From positions 1 through 60,835 of the forward strand of contig NZ_JONM01000024.1 of assembly GCF_000711875.1 (NCBI RefSeq): DNA of 60,835 nucleotides. Reading direction: 5' to 3'. Below the pieces are notes generated by a model. It ran no database searches and was not told the origin of the DNA. It saw only the letters and a list, made by a program, of their open reading frames with translations. Both the position numbers and the translations under genes were made by a program. Origin of the DNA: Andreprevotia chitinilytica DSM 18519 (GTDB taxonomy: Bacteria > Pseudomonadota > Gammaproteobacteria > Burkholderiales > Chitinibacteraceae). This document shows, piece by piece, positions 19,834 to 30,370 of the stretch (positions are counted from its first letter, which is position 1; each line of letters begins with the position of its first letter).

Positions 19834-20517
19834 ATGAGTGTGTTTCCCATTCTTGCACGCGGCATGTTGGCGAGCGAGCGAGCAATTCAATACCAAGGCA
19901 TGAATCTGGTCAATTTGCAGACACCGGGTTATCGCCGTATCCAGCCGGATTTCGCAACATTGCTCCAGGCGAACGAACCTGGAGAATCACAAGTAACGAT
20001 TGATACATCACCGGGCGCCCTATTGGAAACAGGGCGCAAACTGGATGTTTATCTTCAACCGGATACGTATCTCGTTGTAAAGGGCGAAGCGCAACAAACG
20101 CTTTATAGCCGCTTTGGACACCTTTCATTGACCCAAGATGGACGCTTGCAAGATGGAAAGGGCAATGAGATCGAGTATTTCGGCGCATTGCCAAAAGACA
20201 TCTCGGAAGGAATGCGCATCGGCAATGATGGACGCATCTGGAATGGCAAAGACCAGATTGGTGCGCTCAAGCTGGTGCATATCGCCAATCCCGAAGCAAG
20301 AATGGATGGCTATGTGCAGGGTGGGCGAGATATCACCCCTGTAACAGATGGTGCAAATGCATTACTTGCCGGTGGGGTGGAGGCTTCCAATGTGAAGTAC
20401 GTTGATTCCATCGTGGATATGATGGCGCAATCCAGTCGTATCTCCGGAATGCAATATGCCTATCAACGCGTCAATGACGTTTACGATCAAGCAATTGGCG
20501 AGCTTGGTCGTTTCTAA
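19834..20517 (+). CDS. flgF: FlgF-like proximal rod protein
   Basis: 227 residues, slightly shorter than usual FlgF. The N-terminus has the rod-family signature in variant form (AIQYQGMNLVNLQTPGYRRIQPDF, corresponding to the ANNLANxxTPGF motif). The C-terminus carries GGVEASNVKYVDSIVDMMAQSSRISGMQYAYQRVNDVYDQAIGELG, the typical C-terminal rod helix. It would form part of the periplasmic rod. It opens a cluster of flagellum-derived genes but is not preceded by flgB, C, D or E. GC looks lower than in flanking genes. Confidence 0.85.
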   Translation: MSVFPILARGMLASERAIQYQGMNLVNLQTPGYRRIQPDFATLLQANEPGESQVTIDTSPGALLETGRKLDVYLQPDTYLVVKGEAQQTLYSRFGHLSLTQDGRLQDGKGNEIEYFGALPKDISEGMRIGNDGRIWNGKDQIGALKLVHIANPEARMDGYVQGGRDITPVTDGANALLAGGVEASNVKYVDSIVDMMAQSSRISGMQYAYQRVNDVYDQAIGELGRF

Positions 20518-20623
20518 TCACCATTGCTCATCGCAATTTCCAATAAATTGAGTTGAATCGAATTTCCGCTGGCTGTTGCTCGCCGCCGAATCTCTTTTCA
20601 ATCCCACGTATTCAAGCGACCTC

Positions 20624-21391
20624 ATGATCGACCCGATTTACATTGGCCGTAGCGGCTTGCGTGCACAACAACAAGCTGTGACTACCATCTCGAACAATAT
20701 TGCCAATCTTTCCGCGACTGGTTTCAAGCGAGAGATTGCCCAGCAAAGTGCCGTTGTCAGCGTTTCCCCGCTGCGTGGGCAGGTTGGTGGTGCTGCGGAT
20801 GCTCAACCGCTCGGCGTCACCGTTTCTGCAATTGAACGGAACATGTCCCAAGGCCAGTTACAAGAGACCGGCCGGCCGCTGGATGTGGCTATTTCAGGCG
20901 GGGGCTTCTTCGTGCTGCAACGCCCGGATGGCGAGCAGGTCTATGCCCGCGCCGGTGCGTTTGGCGTCGATGGCGAAGGCTATATGGCTGATCGCAACGG
21001 AAACCGCCTGCAGCCGGAAATCCAGATTCAGGGCGATGCCAGTGACCTCGCGATTGATCGCACGGGCTTGGTGACGATTCGCAAGCCCGATGGCTCGTTT
21101 GAAGAATTGGGTGAGTTGCAGATTGCACGCTTCTCCAATCCAGATGGTTTGATGATGGATGGCTCTGGCGTTTATCTGGAAAGCGATCGCGCAGGCCAAG
21201 CCATTGATTCAAAAGCAGGCGAAGCCAGCTCTGGTTATTTCATGCAGGGGTATCTGGAAAACTCCAACGTCAATCTGGTGGATGAATTCACTTCGCTGGT
21301 CATGGCGCAGCGTGCCTATGAGGCCAGCGCCAAGGTGGTGCAAACAGCGGGCAGCTTGTTTGAAGTCGCCAATGGCCTGTTGCGAGCCTGA
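20624..21391 (+). CDS. flgG: FlgG-like distal rod protein
   Basis: 255 residues from the ATG at 20624, close to standard FlgG. The N-terminus IYIGRSGLRAQQQAVTTISNNIANLSATGFKRE has the conserved SNNIAN...TGFKR rod motif. The C-terminus LENSNVNLVDEFTSLVMAQRAYEASAKVVQTAGSLFEVANGLLRA is the typical closing helix. It follows flgF after 106 bases and is six bases upstream of flgH. It would build the distal rod that crosses the P- and L-rings. Confidence 0.9.
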   Translation: MIDPIYIGRSGLRAQQQAVTTISNNIANLSATGFKREIAQQSAVVSVSPLRGQVGGAADAQPLGVTVSAIERNMSQGQLQETGRPLDVAISGGGFFVLQRPDGEQVYARAGAFGVDGEGYMADRNGNRLQPEIQIQGDASDLAIDRTGLVTIRKPDGSFEELGELQIARFSNPDGLMMDGSGVYLESDRAGQAIDSKAGEASSGYFMQGYLENSNVNLVDEFTSLVMAQRAYEASAKVVQTAGSLFEVANGLLRA

Positions 21392-21397
21392 TTAGTC

Positions 21398-22012
21398 ATG
21401 TCCTTGCGTATTGCCGTTTCCATAGGGTGTTTCGCGCTATTGCAATGGTCGGCCATTGCCTGTGCGCAAAGCCTGTTTTCCGAAGAAAACTATCTAGCCT
21501 TGACCAGCGATAATCGTGCAATACGCGTCGGCGACAAATTAACCGTTATCGTCCGCGAAAACACATCAGCGCTCAGCAGTGCCGATACGGCCACCGTGAA
21601 AGATTCATCTTTTGGTGCTTCAGCAAATATTGCCGGTTTGCCAAGCCGTTATCGCTATATCGGTGGCAAGCAGGACGTGTCGGCCGGGCTGGATATTGAA
21701 CGCAGCGCCAAAGGCAAAGGCTCAACCGGCCGCACGGGCCGGATTAACGCATCGATCACGGTATTGGTCAGCCAAGTGGAGCCCAATGGCGATGTTGTCG
21801 TTACCGGAGAAAAAAACGTGGTGGTCAACGATGAAAGTCAATTGATCCAGGTGAATGGCGTTGTGCGCAAAGGCGATATCCAAAGCGACAATACGGTGGA
21901 GTCGAACCGCCTTGCCAATGTCAGCATCAAGATCAAGGGAGAGGGTGATTTGACCAATGCCCAACGTCAGGGGTGGCTTACCAAATTGTTTGATTGGTTG
22001 CGGATCTACTGA
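21398..22012 (+). CDS. flgH: FlgH-like L-ring protein
   Basis: 204 residues. The core LFSEENYLALTSDNRAIRVGDKLTVIVRENTSALSSADT...GRINASITVLVSQVEPNGDVVVTGEKNVVVNDESQLIQVNGVVRKGDI is recognisably FlgH, the outer-membrane L-ring subunit. FlgH is normally a lipoprotein, but here the signal peptide ends SAIAC-AQS, which lacks the canonical L-A/S-G/A-C lipobox. Lipidation is doubtful. The protein ends just after WLTKLFDWLRIY. The TGA overlaps the flgI ATG, implying coupled translation. Confidence 0.88.
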   Translation: MSLRIAVSIGCFALLQWSAIACAQSLFSEENYLALTSDNRAIRVGDKLTVIVRENTSALSSADTATVKDSSFGASANIAGLPSRYRYIGGKQDVSAGLDIERSAKGKGSTGRTGRINASITVLVSQVEPNGDVVVTGEKNVVVNDESQLIQVNGVVRKGDIQSDNTVESNRLANVSIKIKGEGDLTNAQRQGWLTKLFDWLRIY

Positions 22013-23112
22013 TGCGTCGATTTCTGGTGTTGTTTTTTCTCTTATCTTCACCCTTGATGGCCGCGGAATTGCAATTGCGCAATATCGGCCGCTTTGATGG
22101 CTGGAAAGAAAACTATTTGTCCGGCATTGGTCTGGTTTCTGGCCTGGCCAATACCGGCGATTCGGCGCGCAACAAAACGACGCGTCAGGCACTGGCCAAC
22201 CTGATGTCGCGATTCGATCTGAATGTGCAGGATTCGCAGATCACCAGCCGCAATGTGGCTTCGGTGATCGTGACAGCGACGCTGCCCGCCGTCTCCCGCC
22301 CTGGCGACAGGATCGACGTGACCGTCACTTCAATGGGGGACGCAAAATCGCTGGTGGGTGGCGCCCTGCTGCTCACACCGTTGAAAGGCCCGAATGGTCG
22401 TATCTATTGCCTGGCTCAAGGGGCATTGAATGTAGGGGGCTATCGGGCTGAATCGCACGACTCGCTCGTGCAACAGAATCACCCGACCGTGGGCCTGATC
22501 CCTGGCGGCTGCACTGTGGAGCAAGGCACGCAAATCGATCCGCAGCCCGCCAACGGGTTATTGCGTTTTGTGCTGAATCAGCCGGATTACGTGATGTCTG
22601 CATCGGTCGCAGCTAAGGTTCGCAAAACGTTGCCGCAATTGAATGCCGTATCGCGGGATGCCGGCCTGGTAGAAATCCAGTTGCCGCAGTACGTAGCGCC
22701 CGATCAATTGGTGGAACTGATCGCCAGTATCGAGGCCGTGCGTGTTGAACCGGTCAATCAAATCAAAGTGGTGGTCAATGAGCGCAGCGGCGTGGTGGTC
22801 GCCGGCGCACAAACGGTGATTTCACCGATTGCTGTTTCATACGGCAATTTGCGGATTTCCATCAATTCGACATCAATTGTCGCGCAGCCGTTATTGGTGA
22901 TCAATTCGCCCGATACCCGCGCATCCATCACGCGTGATAGCACGATCAAAGCGACTGAGGCCGGTGCATCCGTCATTACCCGGCCGGGCAATACCGTTGC
23001 CGATCTGGTGGCGTTGCTGAATGCGCAGCGTGTTTCGGCGCGAGACATGATTGCCATTTTGCAGGCAATCAAAGCATCCGGCGCGTTATATGCCGATATC
23101 GTTGTCCAGTAA
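22012..23112 (+). CDS. flgI: FlgI-like P-ring protein
   Basis: 366 residues, normal length for FlgI. A cleavable signal peptide precedes LQLRNIGRFDGWKENYLSGIGLVSGLANTGDS, a divergent form of the conserved IKDIA...R.NQLvGyGLVvGL..TGD opening. The C-terminal NTVADLVALLNAQRVSARDMIAILQAIKASGALYADIVVQ matches the family ending. It would form the periplasmic bushing around the rod. It overlaps flgH by one base. Confidence 0.92.
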   Translation: MRRFLVLFFLLSSPLMAAELQLRNIGRFDGWKENYLSGIGLVSGLANTGDSARNKTTRQALANLMSRFDLNVQDSQITSRNVASVIVTATLPAVSRPGDRIDVTVTSMGDAKSLVGGALLLTPLKGPNGRIYCLAQGALNVGGYRAESHDSLVQQNHPTVGLIPGGCTVEQGTQIDPQPANGLLRFVLNQPDYVMSASVAAKVRKTLPQLNAVSRDAGLVEIQLPQYVAPDQLVELIASIEAVRVEPVNQIKVVVNERSGVVVAGAQTVISPIAVSYGNLRISINSTSIVAQPLLVINSPDTRASITRDSTIKATEAGASVITRPGNTVADLVALLNAQRVSARDMIAILQAIKASGALYADIVVQ

Positions 23113-23131
23113 TGAAAAAGGTAATTGGATC

Positions 23132-23425
23132 ATGCTGATTAAAAACACAGGCCTTGATGCCGCAACCGGGTCAATGAACCAGATTCTGGAACAAGGGCAT
23201 TTGATTGCCGGGCGGATTCAGCGGTTCAGTGAAAGCGCCAACGTGGTAGCCAATGCCACTCAAGTCGATCATGAAAATGCAGCCGGTGAAAGCGCCTCGG
23301 CGAACAACGAATTAAGTGCTGAGATTGCATCGTTGGCCGAAGGCGTTGCGCGTTTCAGTGTGTTGGGGCGTTTGGCTTCATTGCAGCTTGGCATGTATTC
23401 CATTGTGGCGACGGACGGTAAATAA
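23132..23425 (+). CDS. Mini FlgB-like rod protein (candidate)
   Basis: 97 residues, against about 135-140 for normal FlgB. The C-terminal NNELSAEIASLAEGVARFSVLGRLASLQLGMYSIVATDGK follows the pattern of the FlgB closing helix (VDMDREMxxxAxNSLxYQ...). The N-terminal half is helical but lacks the ANNIANADTPGY loop. The size and all-helical design recall type III inner-rod proteins. Position directly before a FlgC-like gene supports the FlgB assignment, which remains inference. The ribosome-binding region is poor. Confidence 0.55.
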   Translation: MLIKNTGLDAATGSMNQILEQGHLIAGRIQRFSESANVVANATQVDHENAAGESASANNELSAEIASLAEGVARFSVLGRLASLQLGMYSIVATDGK

Positions 23426-23427
23426 CC

Positions 23428-23757
23428 ATGAACGCTTTTGACATCTTCCGCGTGGCCCAAAGCGGCATGGATCGGCAGCAGCAGACATTGCATGCCCTTG
23501 GTGCGCACATGGCCACCATGCCGGCGCAAATGCCTGCCGACAGCGGCTTTGCGCAGCATCTGCAGCAATTGGAACAACACCCCGCCGGGGAGCCAGGCGC
23601 TGCCGCTGCTGCGGATCAACCCGTGCAAGACGATGTGTCCTGGCTCGGTACGGTATTGGGCGTGACTGAATCACTGCGTCTGTACCGCATGAATGCAACG
23701 GTCGCCAATGCGGCCAAAAGCATGATCGAGCGCTCTTTGGATATTTCTGGAAAATAA
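23428..23757 (+). CDS. Mini FlgC-like rod protein
   Basis: 109 residues. The N-terminus MNAFDIFRVAQSGMDRQQQTLHALGAHM fits FlgC (FDIFxISxSGMxAQRxRLNVIASN). The C-terminus VTESLRLYRMNATVANAAKSMIERSLDISGK fits the FlgC end (SRSYQANVxVLNxAKSMMxKTLDIG). The intervening beta domain of normal FlgC (about 135 residues in total) is replaced by a short Pro/Ala/Gln linker. It begins two bases after the preceding stop. Confidence 0.65.
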   Translation: MNAFDIFRVAQSGMDRQQQTLHALGAHMATMPAQMPADSGFAQHLQQLEQHPAGEPGAAAAADQPVQDDVSWLGTVLGVTESLRLYRMNATVANAAKSMIERSLDISGK

Positions 23758-23769
23758 GGCAATAAGTTC

Positions 23770-24081
23770 ATGACGAATTTCTCACTTGCCACAGTGGCTC
23801 CCGTTGCATTACCGGAGCTCAATGTAGCTCCGGACCTCCAATCGCCTCGCAACTCGGCTGTTTCAGGTTTCTCCGCCGTTACCGATCAATTAGACAAGAT
23901 GGCGCAAACACTGTCTGCCAATGAAGCCGCTACGGCCGATTTTGCCCGTGGCAGCTCGGCGATTCCAACCCATGAGTTGATGATCCGCATGGAATCGGCA
24001 CGCCTTGATCTCGCCTTGACCCTGCAAGTGCGTAACAAATTATTGGAAGCGGTGCAGGAAATCTACCGCACCCAGATTTAA
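23770..24081 (+). CDS. fliE: FliE-like MS-ring/rod adaptor
   Basis: 103 residues, normal FliE size. The C-terminal ELMIRMESARLDLALTLQVRNKLLEAVQEIYRTQI is the conserved FliE signature, ending in a Q-I/V close. FliE joins the MS-ring to the first rod subunit. It lies between the FlgC-like gene and fliF, as in many flagellar operons. Confidence 0.9.
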   Translation: MTNFSLATVAPVALPELNVAPDLQSPRNSAVSGFSAVTDQLDKMAQTLSANEAATADFARGSSAIPTHELMIRMESARLDLALTLQVRNKLLEAVQEIYRTQI

Positions 24082-24090
24082 GGTCGTTTC

Positions 24091-25458
24091 ATGGCAATGC
24101 TTGCCACACTATTCAATAAAGGCAAATCCATTTTCATCGTGCTGGTGATTGGCTTTGTGCTGATCGTTTCCGGCGGGATTTATTGGCTGCTTTATCCGCG
24201 CCCGGCTACTTTGGTTTCCGGGCTTGATCCGCAAAAAGCATTGCTGGTTACGCAATTGCTCGATAAGGAAAAAATTCCTTATACGCTGAGTGACGGCGGG
24301 ATGACGATTGCCGTAGACCAAGCCGAGCTCGATCAAGCCCGGTTGAAGGTCTACGCCGCCGATTCATCGCTGGCGAATGAAGTCGGACTGGAGATTTTCT
24401 CCGGCAATGATCTGGGCATGACCGACTTCACCCAGCACGTGAATCTAGTGCGTGGCCTGCAAGGTGAGCTATCGCGCACCATCAGCCGCTTGCCCGGCAT
24501 TGCCGATGCGCGGGTGCATATCTCCATTCCCGAGATGTCTGGTGGTGCCAGAGCCCGCAACGTGCGTCCGCAAGCCGCCGTGACCGTCAATGCCAAACAG
24601 CCGATGTCCACCGAACAGGTCAGCGCCATTCAGCAACTGGTGGCTGCTGCGGTGCCCGGCATGACAGCCAGTGAAGTTGCCGTGATTGATGGCCAGGGCG
24701 TGCCGGTTGCTGGCGCGGGCACGCAAGCTGCCGACAACCCGGCCAGCCGCCGCAATCAGGACATCTATCTGGAAAACCAGGTGCGCAAAGTGCTGCTGCC
24801 GGTGATCGGGCCGCAAGGCAATTTATCGGTTGCCGTTGCCGTGACGTACACCCAGCAGCAGCGCAAGACATCGCGCGAAGAGTTGCTGCCTTCCGGCGCG
24901 TGGCGTGGTATGCCGGTCGGCTTGCTGCAAAACGGCAAATTACGTTACCCCGAGGTGCAACCCGAAGAGGGGCCGTCGACCACGACGGCGGATGCAGACC
25001 CGGCAGCCGAGGGCAGTACCGAGCTGACCTTCGCGCATGGCCGCTATGTGGAGCAAGTTGACGAAGCGCCCAGCAAGATCGCGCGTATCTCCGTCAGCGC
25101 GATTGTCGGCGCCGCCGCGCACTCGCTGGAAACGCAAGACTACGAAAAGCTCATCGCAGATGCCTTGGGATTGGACAGCAAGCGCGGCGATCACGTCACG
25201 GTGCGGGTGCTGGCGAGCAATAGCCCAGTGATTGCAAGCGGTGACGCTGGCCCTACACCGGCCAACATTGCGGCGCCGATAGCGGCATCCGTCCCAAAGG
25301 GAGCTGAAGCGGGCGATCTGCAAAGCTGGATCAATCGCAGTGGTTTCGTATTGGGTTGCCTGTGCCTTCTTGCCTTGGCGTGGCTGTTGCTGCGCCGTCC
25401 GCAACGGCGCGCGCGTGCACTGGCAGAACTCCGTGCCCATTTGCGGCGGAGCCGTTAA
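24091..25458 (+). CDS. fliF: Short FliF-like MS-ring protein
   Basis: 455 residues against roughly 530-570 in standard FliF. A first membrane helix lies at about 13-35. Ring-building YscJ/FliF domains follow, with LVSGLDPQKALLVTQLLDKEKIPYTLSDGG and ARVHISIPE motifs. A second membrane helix is at about 413-431. Only about 24 mostly basic residues follow it. Normal FliF has a longer cytoplasmic tail here that binds FliG, so the rotor attachment site appears missing. This resembles the SctJ situation in injectisomes. The FliF fold itself is confident. Confidence 0.92.
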   Translation: MAMLATLFNKGKSIFIVLVIGFVLIVSGGIYWLLYPRPATLVSGLDPQKALLVTQLLDKEKIPYTLSDGGMTIAVDQAELDQARLKVYAADSSLANEVGLEIFSGNDLGMTDFTQHVNLVRGLQGELSRTISRLPGIADARVHISIPEMSGGARARNVRPQAAVTVNAKQPMSTEQVSAIQQLVAAAVPGMTASEVAVIDGQGVPVAGAGTQAADNPASRRNQDIYLENQVRKVLLPVIGPQGNLSVAVAVTYTQQQRKTSREELLPSGAWRGMPVGLLQNGKLRYPEVQPEEGPSTTTADADPAAEGSTELTFAHGRYVEQVDEAPSKIARISVSAIVGAAAHSLETQDYEKLIADALGLDSKRGDHVTVRVLASNSPVIASGDAGPTPANIAAPIAASVPKGAEAGDLQSWINRSGFVLGCLCLLALAWLLLRRPQRRARALAELRAHLRRSR

Positions 25459-25460
25459 CC

Positions 25461-25829
25461 ATGCGGGATCGCGATCAATTCATCGAACTGGTATTGGCGA
25501 CCGGCTTGCGTGCCCCCCAACTGCAAGTGCAACTGGATGCGGTTGAGTTCGCGGCTTTGCAAAGCGCGCTGGATGCCAACTCGCCTGAGCCAGCTGCATT
25601 GCCGGTGGCGGTTGCCGAGCTGCCACGGTTTGCTGGCTTGGGTGTCACGCTGGAGCCCTTGATGCAGCAGCGTTATCTCGCAACCGGAGAAAACGCCTTG
25701 CCCCCCGCTGCACGGGCTGCGCTGTGCCAGATTATGGGGTGGGATGCACACGTTGTTGCTGCCCAAGTGGAGCAGACACTGGTCGATGGTGAAGGAGAGC
25801 AGCATGGCTCGTTTACTGAAAACCAGTGA
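25461..25829 (+). CDS. Unidentified protein in the FliG position
   Basis: 122 residues, starting two bases after fliF and overlapping the next gene by 26 bases, so clearly in the operon. I do not recognise the sequence. It has no signal peptide, membrane segment or FliG motif (normal FliG is about 330 residues). It is acidic and Ala/Leu-rich, with a likely C-terminal helix ALCQIMGWDAHVVAAQVEQTL. Its slot between fliF and fliH is where fliG sits in flagella and where an SctK-type adaptor can sit in injectisomes. An adaptor role is only an inference from position. Confidence 0.7.
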   Translation: MRDRDQFIELVLATGLRAPQLQVQLDAVEFAALQSALDANSPEPAALPVAVAELPRFAGLGVTLEPLMQQRYLATGENALPPAARAALCQIMGWDAHVVAAQVEQTLVDGEGEQHGSFTENQ

Positions 25830-26496
25830 TTTTCCGCAAGCCAAACCGGCGACCAATATCGGTATGACCGCAGCGCCGGTACTGAATGCCAGCGCGCCCA
25901 AACCTGTTGTGCCGCCGCTGTCGCCCGCAAAGCCTGTCCTCGCAAATTCACCCTCTGCCCCGTTGGCAGGGCAATTTCAGACCATGCTTGGTAAGTCGGC
26001 AGTGCTACCGCCCAAGCCAATCGAAACCGGTGCAGGTCTGGACGATGAAAAGCGCAACCTGATCGCCACGTGCAAGCGGCTTGAGACCCTGCTGACCAGC
26101 ATGAATGCCGAGCTCGAACGGCACGAGGCACAAATCGAAGCCACCGCCGTGGATATCGCCATGGCTGCTGTCGCACAGATCGTTGGCGAGGCAGCACATG
26201 ACCGGGACGCGGCCTTGGCCATCGTGCGCAACAGCCTGGCAAAAAGCCGTGCCGGATCGATCACCTGTCTGTCTCTGTCCCCGCAGGATTACGCCTTCGT
26301 GGTCGAGCAAAACATCACACTGGGCGACCTGCGCGTCCTCCGCGTGGCACTTGATGCACAGATCAAACCGGGTGGCTGCCTGATCGAAACCGCTACCGGT
26401 ATCGTGGATGCGCGCGTAGAGACACAGCTGAAAAGGCTGCGCGATGTGGTGCAGCAAGAAATAAGCAGTGCCAAGGTCGCCCATGAACCGGTTTAG
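25804..26496 (+). CDS. fliH: FliH/SctL-like ATPase stator
   Basis: 230 residues from the ATG at 25804. A Pro/Ala-rich N-terminus (to about 80) leads to a helical segment EKRNLIATCKRLETLLTSMNAELERHEAQIEATAVDIAMAAVAQIVGE, then an alpha/beta C-terminal domain ending IKPGGCLIETATGIVDARVETQLKRL, which is diagnostic for FliH/YscL. It would tether and regulate the FliI ATPase. It overlaps both neighbours, and the next gene starts 14 bases before its end. Confidence 0.85.
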   Translation: MARLLKTSDFPQAKPATNIGMTAAPVLNASAPKPVVPPLSPAKPVLANSPSAPLAGQFQTMLGKSAVLPPKPIETGAGLDDEKRNLIATCKRLETLLTSMNAELERHEAQIEATAVDIAMAAVAQIVGEAAHDRDAALAIVRNSLAKSRAGSITCLSLSPQDYAFVVEQNITLGDLRVLRVALDAQIKPGGCLIETATGIVDARVETQLKRLRDVVQQEISSAKVAHEPV

Positions 26497-27150
26497 CCAA
26501 GCCTTGGATCGGGAAGCTCTCACCTTGCGCGTCGGCCGCATCGTGCGCACCAGCGGCACGATCATCGAAGCAGCTGGCCCCGATGCCTGCGTGGGCGAGA
26601 TTTGCACGATCGTTCCCAGCCACGGCCGGGAGGCGATCGAGGCTGAAGTCATCGGTATCGAGAACGGCCATACGCTGCTATTCCCCTACGGTGAAATGCA
26701 CGGTGTCTCTATCGGCTGCGAAGTCGTAGCGACCGGGCGCTTGCCGGTGGCACCCGTTGCCGGGGAGATGGGCGGTCTGGTCCTGAATGCCTTTGGCGAA
26801 TCCTTTGATCCGGCCAAGCCTTTCCAACCAACCTCGTCGCGCGCCTTGCATCCGCCGCCGTTGAATCCCTTGCAGCGCGAGCCGGTCAAGCAGCGCGTGC
26901 AGACCGGCGTGCGTGCCATCGATCAATTCCTCACGCTTGGGCGAGGCCAGAAGATCGGCCTGTTCGCCGGCGGTGGCGTGGGCAAGACCTCCTTGCTGCA
27001 GCAAATCATTCAAGGCACGGATGCGGATTTGTGCGTGATCGCGCTGGTGGGCGAGCGTGGGCGGGAAGTGCTGGATTTCGTCCACCACGTTGATCGCCTT
27101 GGCTTGCGCAACCGCACGGTCATTGTCGCCGCCACATCGGATCAGCCTGC
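26483..27150 (+). pseudogene. fliI: fliI ATPase, 5' fragment fused in frame to RHS sequence
   Basis: The ATG at 26483 begins a normal FliI/SctN ATPase: N-terminal beta barrel, then TGVRAIDQFLTLGRGQKIGLFAGGGVGKTSLLQQI with Walker A near residue 165, the GERGREV catalytic segment, and RNRTVIVAATSDQPA at the end. FliI should continue with LxR, Walker B and the C-terminal domain (about 440 residues in all). Here it switches after about 223 residues to YD-repeat sequence without a stop. The ATPase lacks Walker B and cannot be functional. The cause may be recombination, deletion or a misassembled join. Confidence 0.85.
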
Positions 27151-27676
27151 CATCAACGCCCTCACCCAACACACCTATGACGGGGCCGGCAACGTGCTCA
27201 CCACCACCGAATACGGCAAGGCGCTCGATTCCCCGGAATGGTGGACGCAAAGCATGGAATACATGGGCTACAGCGTCGCCCACGCCAGCGACCCCGCCAC
27301 CAACCGCACCACCACCAACCAATACGACAGCGCCAACCGCCTCAACCGCAGCTACGGTCCCACCGGCACGAAGACTGAGTACGGCTACGACGCCCTCGGC
27401 CGCCTCACCGATCTCTACACCTATGCCAACAACGGCAAACTGCTGAACCGCACCGACACCACCTGGGACCGTGCCGGCCGCAAGACATCCGAAACCCAAG
27501 GTGCCGGCACCAACGACGCCGCCACCAGGCGCAGGACGCGGTCGAGGACTATGCGACCAAGGCGCAGGCCGGTCGCAAACGCGCCGCGCCAAACGAAGAG
27601 CCTGCCTATGCGAACATGTCGCCCGAAGGCATCGCGCCCCAACTGGTCAACGGCGAATGGACGCTCCCGGCGGTAG
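27151..27676 (+). pseudogene. RHS/YD-repeat core fragment
   Basis: In the same frame as the fliI fragment, the sequence becomes RHS: HTYDGAGNVLTTTEYG, NQYDSANRLNRSYG, YGYDALGRLTDLYTY and TTWDRAGRKTSE are successive YD repeats. Near 27525 the RHS-like reading shifts to another frame (QAQDAVEDYATKAQ...), which leads into the toxin ORF. The end of this frame to 27676 is therefore probably out of register. The N-terminal part of an RHS protein is absent. GC is clearly higher than in the flagellar genes. Confidence 0.8.
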
Positions 27677-28536
27677 ACGTTAGCGCAACGCGCCTGTACG
27701 AGCCGCCGCCAGAGAAACCCATTGACCCCGCAACTTGGGTTGCAGAAGGCCGGGCGAAACTGGCGGCCTCACGTGAACCGGCCGGCTATGGCGACCTGTA
27801 CCTCGACACCGCACAAACTATCGGCAGCGGCGTGATTGCCTCGGTCGCCAACATGGTTCCCGACATGGTGAACGGCGCAGTGGGCTGGACAGAACAATTC
27901 CTGCACCAGAAGTCAGGCGCGTTCGGCCGGCTAGACCCGTGGTATGAAGTGAGGAATGGCGTGGCGCAAGACATCGTGGGTGACATCCGGGCGGTGGAAG
28001 GCGGGCTGACTGCGCTTGGGCCGCTGAAGTTTGGGGCGGCGGCTGGGCGATTGGGGACTGGAGCGCCGAGCAGTATGGCAGCCAAGATTTCTTTCGCGGA
28101 ATCTGCGAACAATATCGTAGATAAAACGTTCGGAATCAAAGCAGGGCAGCTCATCGCTGACAACCCAGTTGCTAGCGCCTATTACGCAAGATTACAGAAG
28201 CAGGGCACAAGTGTTGTTTTTATAAATGACTCGGCTATGAGTGATATGGCATTCTTTGAGGGTCAATACAACAAAGTTACTATTAACCTGTCGAAGCACT
28301 CTTCAGCGGAAGAGATTGCATCCACTATTGTTCATGAGTCCACGCACCAAGGCCGATATTTCAAGGACATCCCACTTGGAAACCAGTATGAAGAATATTT
28401 GGCACTTCGGAACGAAGAGTTTTTTGCAACTGGGGCGCGCCCTTCGATTGATATACGCCGTCAGATTTGGGTAGATGCCCAGCAGATTTATCCGCACTTG
28501 CCGCAAGGTAGAAGTCCGTTTGGAGGCCAGCAATGA
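27616..28536 (+). CDS. RHS-associated toxin C-terminus with HExxH metallopeptidase-like motif
   Basis: 306 residues from the ATG at 27616. The frame is open further upstream (QAQDAVEDYATKAQAGRKR...), and no ribosome-binding site precedes this ATG, so it is probably the tail of an RHS protein. Residues 1-155 include a hydrophobic linker (TIGSGVIASVANMVPDMVNGAVG) common before RHS toxin tips. From about residue 156 base composition drops. The tip contains TIVHESTHQG (His240, Glu241, His244), a zincin motif, followed by RNEEFF, which may supply the third ligand. A proteolytic effector is inferred. A small gene overlaps its stop by four bases. Confidence 0.75.
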   Translation: MSPEGIAPQLVNGEWTLPAVDVSATRLYEPPPEKPIDPATWVAEGRAKLAASREPAGYGDLYLDTAQTIGSGVIASVANMVPDMVNGAVGWTEQFLHQKSGAFGRLDPWYEVRNGVAQDIVGDIRAVEGGLTALGPLKFGAAAGRLGTGAPSSMAAKISFAESANNIVDKTFGIKAGQLIADNPVASAYYARLQKQGTSVVFINDSAMSDMAFFEGQYNKVTINLSKHSSAEEIASTIVHESTHQGRYFKDIPLGNQYEEYLALRNEEFFATGARPSIDIRRQIWVDAQQIYPHLPQGRSPFGGQQ

Positions 28537-28787
28537 ATCGAGTCTTAGCAAACACTGTGAGCAGTGTAGAGGCGATGCGCCTAGTGAGAGAAGGGCATGA
28601 GTTTGAGTGCCCAATTTGCCACGCTACAATTGAAACTATTCCCAAGGATTGGAGGCAAGGTATGCAGTTAAGTGGCCTTGCTTGTCCTACGAGTCAAAAG
28701 CACTTTCTGATTTACGGAGATGATGCTGATACGTTAAGGGAATATCGAGAAGTGCAGCGATTGAGAAGGGTTGATAAAAAAACCTGA
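28533..28787 (+). CDS. Candidate immunity protein with zinc-ribbon-like cysteines
   Basis: 84 residues; ATGA overlap with the toxin stop gives translational coupling, the usual toxin-immunity layout. CPIC (Cys26, Cys29) and a later Cys51/His57 could form a zinc site. I do not recognise the family. Its AT-rich composition matches the toxin tip rather than the RHS core. Function as immunity is inferred from position only. Confidence 0.6.
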   Translation: MNRVLANTVSSVEAMRLVREGHEFECPICHATIETIPKDWRQGMQLSGLACPTSQKHFLIYGDDADTLREYREVQRLRRVDKKT

Positions 28788-29598: not shown

Positions 29599-29985
29599 TC
29601 ACACCTTGCGTATCGGGCCGGGGTACTGTGCTACCAAGGAGTCGGCGGTGAGCAAGGTGATGCCTTCGATCAATGCCTGGGCGATGAGGATTCGGTCGAA
29701 TGGGTCTCTGTGGATCGCTGGCAGGTTATCTATGGCGACTGCATGTTCGCTACCGATGGGTAACTCGCTATAGCCGTTGTCCAGCAGCCCTCGGCGCAGC
29801 AGCCGTGCATTCACCTGGAAATCGGCCCGGCCCAGTCCGTGTTTGATGGCGATTTCCCATAAGCTGGCCGCGCTGAAAAACAATTCGTTCTCTGGTGTAT
29901 CAAGCAGGGTGCGGGCTTCGTTGGATAAGCGGTCTGGCTCTCCGGCTGCCCATAGCAGCAGATGCGTATCCAGTAACAGCTTCAT
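29599..29985 (-). CDS. vapC: VapC-type PIN-domain toxin
   Basis: 128 residues. The conserved acidic residues of PIN ribonucleases are visible in LLLDTHLLLW (Asp6), SLWEIAIK (Glu) and HRDPFDRILIAQAL (Asp), followed by TADSLV. These enzymes cut RNA, often tRNA or rRNA, when freed from antitoxin. The start overlaps the antitoxin stop by four bases, giving the usual antitoxin-first operon. Confidence 0.92.
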   Translation of the reverse strand: MKLLLDTHLLLWAAGEPDRLSNEARTLLDTPENELFFSAASLWEIAIKHGLGRADFQVNARLLRRGLLDNGYSELPIGSEHAVAIDNLPAIHRDPFDRILIAQALIEGITLLTADSLVAQYPGPIRKV

Positions 29986-30227
29986 GCTTCACCACCGAAT
30001 AGTTGTTCGATCTCGGTGCTCCCCATTCGGTCGAAGTCATCGGGCACGGTGATTTGCCCGGCCATGAAGCCCAGCCGCTTCACTTGCGTTGCCTCTGGCG
30101 CGTTCAATGCCATGACTTTGACCAGCGGTTTGCCTGCCTTGGCGATCACGAATGGTTCGCCGTTGGCGGCCTGTTCGATGAGCCGCGATAAGTGTGTCTT
30201 GGCTTCGTGGATGTTGACGGTTTGCAT
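29982..30227 (-). CDS. Phd/YefM-type antitoxin
   Basis: 81 residues from the ATG at 30227. The N-terminus MQTVNIHEAKTHLSRLIEQA is the Phd/YefM DNA-binding fold, followed by GEPFVIAKAGKPLVKV. The C-terminal DDFDRMGSTEIEQLFGGEA would wrap and neutralise the PIN toxin. It likely autoregulates the pair. The longer frame to 30284 is not supported. Confidence 0.92.
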   Translation of the reverse strand: MQTVNIHEAKTHLSRLIEQAANGEPFVIAKAGKPLVKVMALNAPEATQVKRLGFMAGQITVPDDFDRMGSTEIEQLFGGEA

Positions 30228-30370
30228 GGTGCGCTCGATTAAACTAAGTTGGGTTAGTCTAGTTTTGTGGGGCTGTGGTGGCAACCGCTCTGCGGCTTGG
30301 GGCTAGTGATTACCCCTGTTGCCCGCATGCACCGGGCCGACTAGCATCGCGGGTTTACGTGGGGATGGGC

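Follow-up and report, generated by a model that had tools for sequence, protein, structure and literature searches.

Introduction

Among the described systems closest to the one treated here is the flagellar type III secretion system (FT3SS) of the non-flagellated bacterium Lysobacter enzymogenes OH11, which is reported to export a foreign FliC in dependence on flhB and fliI (PMC7277350) and to export FlgD (PMC9927559), and for which an effect on twitching is reported as well (PMC7277350, PMC9927559). According to BLAST searches in these reports, 15 species lack fliG, fliM, flgB, fliE, fliC, fliD, flgK, flgL and motAB (PMC7277350, PMC9927559), and the FT3SS genes are described as retained left-overs (PMC9927559). 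The type III secretion system (T3SS) of Myxococcales is given by Abby and Rocha (2012) as being without FlgBCDEK, FliEG, FlgH and MotAB (PMC3459982). Here we analyse a compact flagellum-derived gene cluster in a stretch of 60,835 nucleotides from Andreprevotia chitinilytica DSM 18519 (contig NZ_JONM01000024.1, positions 1 to 60,835), which as a whole we call the window, and we use X as the name for the family of rotor-less flagellar T3SS made up of this cluster and its relatives. We put at roughly 75% the probability that the window holds the middle of a cluster for a rotor-less and filament-less flagellar export device, that complete relatives build this device, and that the copy in the window is probably inactive.

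Results

The cluster in the window and in related genomes

A first-pass annotation, made from the sequence alone, had placed a flagellar gene order at 19834-27150. Order and coordinates are as it claimed, and matches to Pfam and NCBIfam hidden Markov models back the flagellar identities:

19834..20517, + strand: flgF, 227 amino acids (aa), 43% identity to flgF of the related genome G005
20624..21391, + strand: flgG, 255 aa counted from the ATG at 20624, 55% to G005
21398..22012, + strand: flgH, L-ring, 204 aa, 61% to G005
21994..23112, + strand: flgI, P-ring, 372 aa, 69% to G005
23126..23425, + strand: short FlgB-like rod gene, 99 aa, without Pfam or NCBIfam match, 39% to its positional counterpart in G005
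23428..23757, + strand: short FlgC-like rod gene, 109 aa, 37% to its positional counterpart in G005, NCBIfam FlgC C-terminal end matched at 0.0028
23770..24081, + strand: fliE, 103 aa, Pfam FliE 4.4e-17
24091..25458, + strand: fliF, short form, 455 aa, YscJ_FliF 2e-44 and YscJ_FliF_C 1.5e-13
25455..25829, + strand: OrfX, 124 aa, named by its position between fliF and fliH, the place of fliG
25804..26496, + strand: fliH, 230 aa, Pfam FliH 2.5e-18, with HrpE/YscL-type models scoring as well
26483..27154, + strand: N-terminal half of fliI, P-loop only, its frame continuing into Rhs DNA and stopping at 27676
27155..28536, + strand: Rhs (YD-repeat) fragment and the next open reading frame (ORF), in place of the remaining cluster

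All genes from 19834 to 27154 lie on the + strand and mostly overlap or stand close together. The cluster is beyond chance, as ten of its genes are unbroken and in line with one another, and relatives show the same collinearity. Its GC content is 56.7%, that of the window 58.7%. Pfam matches FlgG (three rod/hook domains), FlgH (2.5e-47) and FlgI (8.3e-98) above the cut-off; FlgF, at 26.1 bits, is slightly below the Pfam cut-off of 27 and below that of NCBIfam flgF (88.6 vs 178.5), and exceeds that of TIGR03506 (FlgEFG). The ATPase models match FliI over roughly its first half only. Neither short rod-like gene has a Pfam match, and the FlgC-like one finds the X-type FlgC of other relatives with E down to 1e-8. 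Relatives other than G005 have a normal FlgB at the FlgB position.

A FliF search of 100 related genomes gave matches in 83, most of them open frames of about 535-610 aa, and a short FliF in G005 (50% identity), G066, G096, G073, G001 (of the same genus as the window genome), G002 and G062. Each of these seven genomes has one cluster, with the order fliR-flhB-flhA-flgF-flgG-flgA-flgH-flgI-flgB-flgC-fliE-fliF-OrfX-fliH-fliI-fliJ-fliK-flgD-flgE-fliM-fliN-fliO-fliP-fliA plus TPR genes, where fliM is a diverged form. In the cluster of G005, flgA, fliO and fliA were not recognised, and in that of G096 flhA, flhB and fliR stand at the opposite end; a 677-aa ORF adjoining flgF in G096 was rejected as FlhA. 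Pfam confirms FlgA and FliQ (one example each), FliO and FliJ are slightly below cut-off, and FliK is named by position only.

A species scan with one genome per species gave at least 590 pattern matches, at least 565 of them encoding any FliF relative, and the best 80 loci were kept. These belong to Beta- and Gammaproteobacteria (genera include Ramlibacter, Variovorax, Massilia, Duganella, Burkholderia, Caballeronia, Pandoraea, Legionella, Hahella, Lysobacter, Stenotrophomonas, Xanthomonas and others) and share the order fliQ-R-flhB-flhA-flgF-G-A-H-I-B-C-fliE-F-OrfX-fliH-I-flgD-E-fliM(diverged)-N-O-P-fliA. The same gene order that the first-pass annotation proposed to look for in related genomes is thus found, collinear, in seven genomes and in the best 80 loci. 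The loci were annotated with profiles from the seven clusters and with canonical FliG, FlgK, FlgL and FliM, each from one genome; to the limit of each contig or locus the cluster is visible, and no ORF in the 80 loci is best matched by any of these four canonical proteins. Among the 67 loci that span 20.5 kb or more, 11 genes occur in every one and the remaining ones in 53 (fliQ) to 66, with OrfX and fliA at 57/67 each. The order equals the reference in 49/67; most of the other 18 are explained by over-extended ORF starts of neighbours, and L105 (fliQ-R-flhB after fliP) and L112 (fliH) show apparently true moves.

In the order to which the window belongs, X-type FliF is present in 15 of 399 genomes, the window genome included (E <= 1e-32, with no more than 4 candidates per genome being scored). 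Among these 15 the only close pair is the window genome and G005 (50%), and the short FlgB and FlgC were seen in these two only; they form a subtype in which both proteins are reduced to about the size of FliE.

No conserved substrate or filament gene was seen among families present in at least 4 X loci. Apart from families resembling FliJ, FliK or OrfX and frames that we take for antisense artefacts, no unlabelled family recurred that often; no search aimed at secretin, needle or translocon genes was made. A conserved gene of 120-150 aa (orf124; L040:7984-8376 and homologues), without NCBIfam match, recurs next to X clusters. Adjoining the G005 cluster (L033:10924-13346) are a gene for an RTX-type (HlyC) acyltransferase (2.8e-9) and a 663-aa protein weakly SelO-like (5.9e-5, slightly below cut-off), which are absent from the other loci compared and may be substrates or modifiers. 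The TPR protein encoded in G005 is similar to SycD/LcrH chaperones (2e-8, below the curated cut-off).

Ancestry of FlhA and FliF

A FlhA tree was built from 92 rows, and the 21 rows of X stand on one side of a branch with a Shimodaira-Hasegawa-like approximate likelihood ratio (SH-aLRT) of 100. A second set (55 rows, 94) comprises flagellar FlhA from beta, gamma and other classes of Pseudomonadota, and a third holds the SctV-type rows together with two Hahella rows earlier labelled possible second flagella. The FliF tree likewise has an X clade (31 rows, SH-aLRT 100), with the window and G005 inside it. By these sequences the X family appears separate from flagella in both FlhA and FliF, and from injectisomes in FlhA.

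It is quite unlikely that X is a family of non-flagellar injectisomes in which genes for rod, rings and hook were retained or regained. HrpE/YscL and SctN models do give FliH and the FliI fragment slightly higher scores than flagellar models do, and X lies between flagella and SctV in the FlhA tree, but its FlhA falls outside the SctV group (SH-aLRT 100), and FlgH/FlgI rings, a FlgB/C/F/G rod, a FlgE hook and FlgD are all present.

Torque, stator and filament parts in carrier genomes

The carrier genomes, 39 in all, come from 40 of the 80 loci (L127 left out). In 8 of the 39 the torque domain FliG_C is absent anywhere in the genome: Ramlibacter pallidus, Variovorax sp. 770b2, a Ramlibacter metagenome-assembled genome (MAG), R. 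monticola, Legionella maceachernii, Lysobacter sp. Root690, a Lysobacterales MAG and Oleiagrimonas citrea. Flagellin_N is found in 0/8, and MotB_plug is absent from six; R. monticola has a marginal match (24.4 bits against a cut-off of 24), and that of L. maceachernii stays below the cut-off. The FlhA-type protein is single in 6/8, and the extra ones of G102 and G128 fall in the SctV group. In the Lysobacter group, the genus of Root690, X-type FliF occurs in 8 of 20 genomes and FliG_C in 0/20; three of these eight FliF are 97-100% identical to that of Root690 and five 35-38%. In the genus of G128 (G697, G698, G700, G703, G708, G711, G713) there are two X types, with FliF 97-98% and 35-38% identical to that of Root690, which suggests transfer or old paralogy.

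These genomes also bear on the possibility that X clusters are ordinary second (lateral) flagella that decay repeatedly and independently, their motor and filament genes simply being lost. Every part of X is homologous to a flagellar one, some carriers do have a true second flagellum that includes its own FliG (a second FliG_C in G109, G113, G123, G125 and G133), and the Lysobacter genes are called left-overs in the paper cited above (PMC9927559). Against this stand one conserved cluster with identical missing parts across many families, the single X clade in both trees, and eight FliG_C-free carriers that keep X, and we find repeated decay unlikely.

The switch scaffold

The first-pass annotation noted a short fliF and, as background, that FliF has a C-terminal tail to which FliG binds. 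In the window copy 18 residues follow the last membrane segment, with no tryptophan (W) among them (the membrane segment itself holds W). Tails in the X family have a median of 36 residues vs 75 in 23 canonical FliF. The W is kept in 69 of the 80 locus FliF, 9 do not have it and 2 could not be assigned, and the FliG-binding end is therefore mostly retained; a family-wide loss of it was rejected.

In the relatives, OrfX has about 145-220 aa and occupies the fliG position of fliE-F-G-H-I. The protein of Andreprevotia lacus, modelled with AlphaFold on 39 sequences, is helical, with a predicted local distance difference test (pLDDT) of 83.8 and a predicted template modelling (TM) score of 0.50. 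Its top 11 Foldseek matches in the PDB are FliG or C-ring chains taken as FliG, with MgtE at rank 12, and local fits include the FliG middle domain 4qrm (TM 0.73 by target) and the FliG C-terminal domain 1qc7 (2.0 Å over 68 columns). The OrfX profile aligns with canonical FliG collinearly across FliG_N and FliG_M (p 3.7e-5, probability 71%), while 15 other families used as controls give p >= 0.22; of the 39 members, 3 match FliG_M, 2 FliG_N and 2 FliG_C. OrfX of the relatives looks like a mini-FliG, and we read it as FliG_N/M minus the torque domain, though it may keep other repeats, as FliG_C also fits at 2.0 Å. OrfX of the window (124 aa) and of G005 (94 aa) are highly diverged, and the mini-FliG reading comes from the OrfX of the relatives rather than that of the window.

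The diverged FliM has a SpoA domain in 42/42 rows and a match to the Pfam FliM middle domain in 0/42; its model (pLDDT 87.2) matches C-ring FliM chains along its length (E 7.6e-8). The CheY-binding peptide, searched for with a rough pattern, occurs in 0/42 and is present in the sole canonical FliM checked. The CheY-binding motif of FliM, the EHPQ motif of FliG, the names of the Walker motifs and the kinship of MotA and ExbB belong to general background. In the switch complex of X, then, the scaffold side is kept and the coupling side was not found.

Truncation and fate of the window copy

The ATPase was noted as broken in the first pass, and it is: homology to fliI stops at about 27154, where YD-repeat (Rhs) coding DNA continues the fliI frame. 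The ten genes upstream of fliI are unbroken, with lengths within about 7 residues of those in G005 except for OrfX. Also as claimed, the cluster is without flgD, flgE, flagellin, fliG, fliM and fliN, and canonical flagellar genes stand on other contigs. The draft genome of the host (5.15 Mb in 61 contigs, the window being contig C22) is rated 100% complete, and its canonical flagellum, with several labels given by eye, has fliE, fliF (575 aa), fliG and fliI on C5, flg genes on C2, and flhA/B, fliM/N, fliP and fliR on C18, with flagellin-type and MotB-type genes also on other contigs. FlhA is single copy in this genome and canonical by its position in the FlhA tree. The genome-wide search that the first-pass annotation suggested thus gave a canonical set including flhA/B and fliG/M/N, and no second set of X type.

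The missing parts were searched for in the host genome with the G005 FliI C-part, FlgD, FlgE, diverged FliM, FliN, FliP, FlhB and FliR as queries. They led to 15 places: canonical flagellar genes (C2, C5, C18), FlgG of the window, two ATP-synthase-type proteins and a Rho-like ORF. With these queries no X-type hook, diverged FliM, FliN, export gate or second fliI end was found on any host contig. A second set of missing genes elsewhere was rejected, the two matches on C4 being the ATP-synthase-type proteins, as was a weak match at C2:364113, where the ORF resembles Rho (by eye). The Rhs piece is single copy in the host genome, with one 92-base match at 72% elsewhere, and a collapsed repeat behind the fliI break was rejected on that ground. 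Because the missing parts turn up only as canonical or unrelated genes and the Rhs piece is single copy, both flanks of the cluster are lost in the window, upstream fliQ-fliR-flhB-flhA and downstream the stretch from the C-terminal part of fliI to fliP.

An error of assembly at the fliI break, with a complete cluster in the real genome, is highly improbable. The draft has 61 contigs and Rhs genes are repetitive, but the Rhs piece is single copy and no missing part lies on any contig of a genome rated complete. That the window copy is still active, with export gate and ATPase supplied in trans by the canonical flagellum, is very unlikely too: ten unbroken genes and a complete canonical gate speak for it, while the X-type hook, the diverged FliM, FliN and half of FliI are gone. 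The FliF of the window falls in the X clade and the complete cluster, with gate, hook, diverged FliM and FliN, is not there, so that the window holds a relic of X rather than a working member. We regard it as the surviving middle of an X cluster, probably inactive.

A repetitive Rhs-like region also lies near the G005 cluster (L033:14267-18774, by eye), and such clusters may repeatedly have Rhs genes beside them or break at them. Past the Rhs fragment of the window, at 27616-28787, ORFs of 306 and 84 aa resemble an Rhs tip and a small partner, the former without NCBIfam match, and at 29599-30284 two minus-strand ORFs resemble a PIN-type toxin and a Phd-type antitoxin (by eye). On contig C18 of G000 (L046, L143), just past the canonical fliR region, genes resemble a type VI secretion cluster (by eye).

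Discussion

The first-pass annotation had proposed a specialised export apparatus or relic which lost rotation, and had allowed that full-length relatives could make this copy mere decay. Both are partly right. The relatives have flgD, flgE, flhA/B, fliP/Q/R, fliN and a diverged fliM, so the results do not support a machine that by its nature is without hook, gate, fliM and fliN; the window is without these parts because it is truncated at both cluster ends. The missing torque domain is not accounted for in this way: the family is flagellum-derived, separately conserved and without FliG_C (8/39 carriers are without any, and none of these has flagellin). The results support the view that lost rotation holds for the X family and that the absent hook and gate are decay of the window copy.

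From gene content, conservation, separate ancestry and carriers without torque domain or flagellin we infer an assembled structure and a role in secretion. The export gate (FlhA/B, FliP/Q/R) would sit inside a small FliF ring, and a rod of FliE and FlgB/C/F/G would pass the P- and L-rings and carry a FlgE hook, assembled with the help of FlgD and bearing no filament. In the cytoplasm, mini-FliG, diverged FliM and FliN could form a non-rotating, C-ring-like scaffold on which the FliH/FliI ATPase docks, comparable to the sorting platform of injectisomes, and the substrates would be others than flagellin. X should not turn by the known mechanism, because FliG_C (stator coupling) and the N-terminal peptide of FliM (chemotaxis coupling) were not found. 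A FliA-type sigma factor, present in 57/67 loci, points to a switch to late genes that lie beyond the cluster.

Several points weigh against this reading. X is known here from its genes, and secretion and structure are deduced from them. A FlhA topology with X beside beta/gamma flagella is compatible with the data (approximately unbiased test, p 0.46, other phyla being outside the sample), and the split of X is therefore undated. FliG_C is also present in 31/39 carriers, where X and the flagellum could therefore share parts; of the eight without it two are MAGs, and all eight are of unstated completeness. In Foldseek, OrfX matches FliG with weak E-values (0.29-1.7, none <= 0.001), its members hit the Pfam family MgtE_N more often than any other (14/39, best 2.8e-5), and OrfX of the window has 7.5 bits to the OrfX family profile and no match to OrfX of G005 or to FliG. 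Ten unbroken genes remain in the window, and activity through the canonical gate may occur. The FT3SS genes of L. enzymogenes are stated not to form an operon (PMC7277350), at odds with a compact cluster.

X may form a third class of type III systems in addition to flagella and injectisomes, a lineage old and standing on its own that kept rod, L/P rings and hook, with a FliG without torque domain and a FliM without CheY contact, secreting through a hook-tipped tube; we think the chances of this are evenly balanced. If it is true, X is a living flagellum turned to secretion without gaining a secretin. It would let the separability of the export role of the C-ring from rotation be tested in nature, and would alter how flagellar genes left over in bacteria without flagella, Lysobacter for example, are read. 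Among the papers that our searches of the open-licence PMC literature returned, none treats X as one widespread system in its title or abstract start; papers outside that literature could.

Comparison with known systems

X shares with the flagellum homologous rod, rings, hook, export gate, ATPase and FliN, and the order fliE-F-[G]-H-I, with rod and L/P rings present in the window and the hook in complete relatives only. It differs in that the X cluster is without FliG_C, flagellin and hook-filament proteins and that its FlhA and FliF clades are separate. With the injectisome, or non-flagellar T3SS, it has in common the export core, a short FliF tail and, by inference for X, a non-rotating scaffold, whereas X has FlgH/FlgI, FlgE and FlgB/C/F/G, and its FlhA is outside the SctV group. 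By these features X is neither a working flagellum, as FliG_C and flagellin are missing, nor an injectisome, as it is not in the SctV clade, and should act as a device for secretion built on the base of a flagellum.

The FT3SS of L. enzymogenes is probably a member of X, since 8 of 20 genomes of the Lysobacter group, from which rather than from the OH11 genome this is judged, have X-type FliF and none has FliG_C. The reports on it describe the same retention of export gate and ATPase, missing motor and filament genes, and functional export; they differ in giving flgB and fliE as missing, whereas both are present in X in diverged form. We take it that FliE, FlgB and FliM of Lysobacter were reported missing because they have diverged past detection by BLAST.

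The basal body of Buchnera is a reduced normal flagellum. It resembles X in that basal body and export genes are described in a filament-free bacterium (PMC8109811). The T3SS of Myxococcales is, as described, motor-less, a proposed intermediate and formerly annotated as a relic (PMC3459982), and differs in that X retains FlgBCDE, FliE and FlgH. The step from flagellum to injectisome has so far been argued from this one odd system without rod and L-ring (PMC3459982), and X would complement it as a case in which rings, rod and hook are retained and torque and filament are gone.

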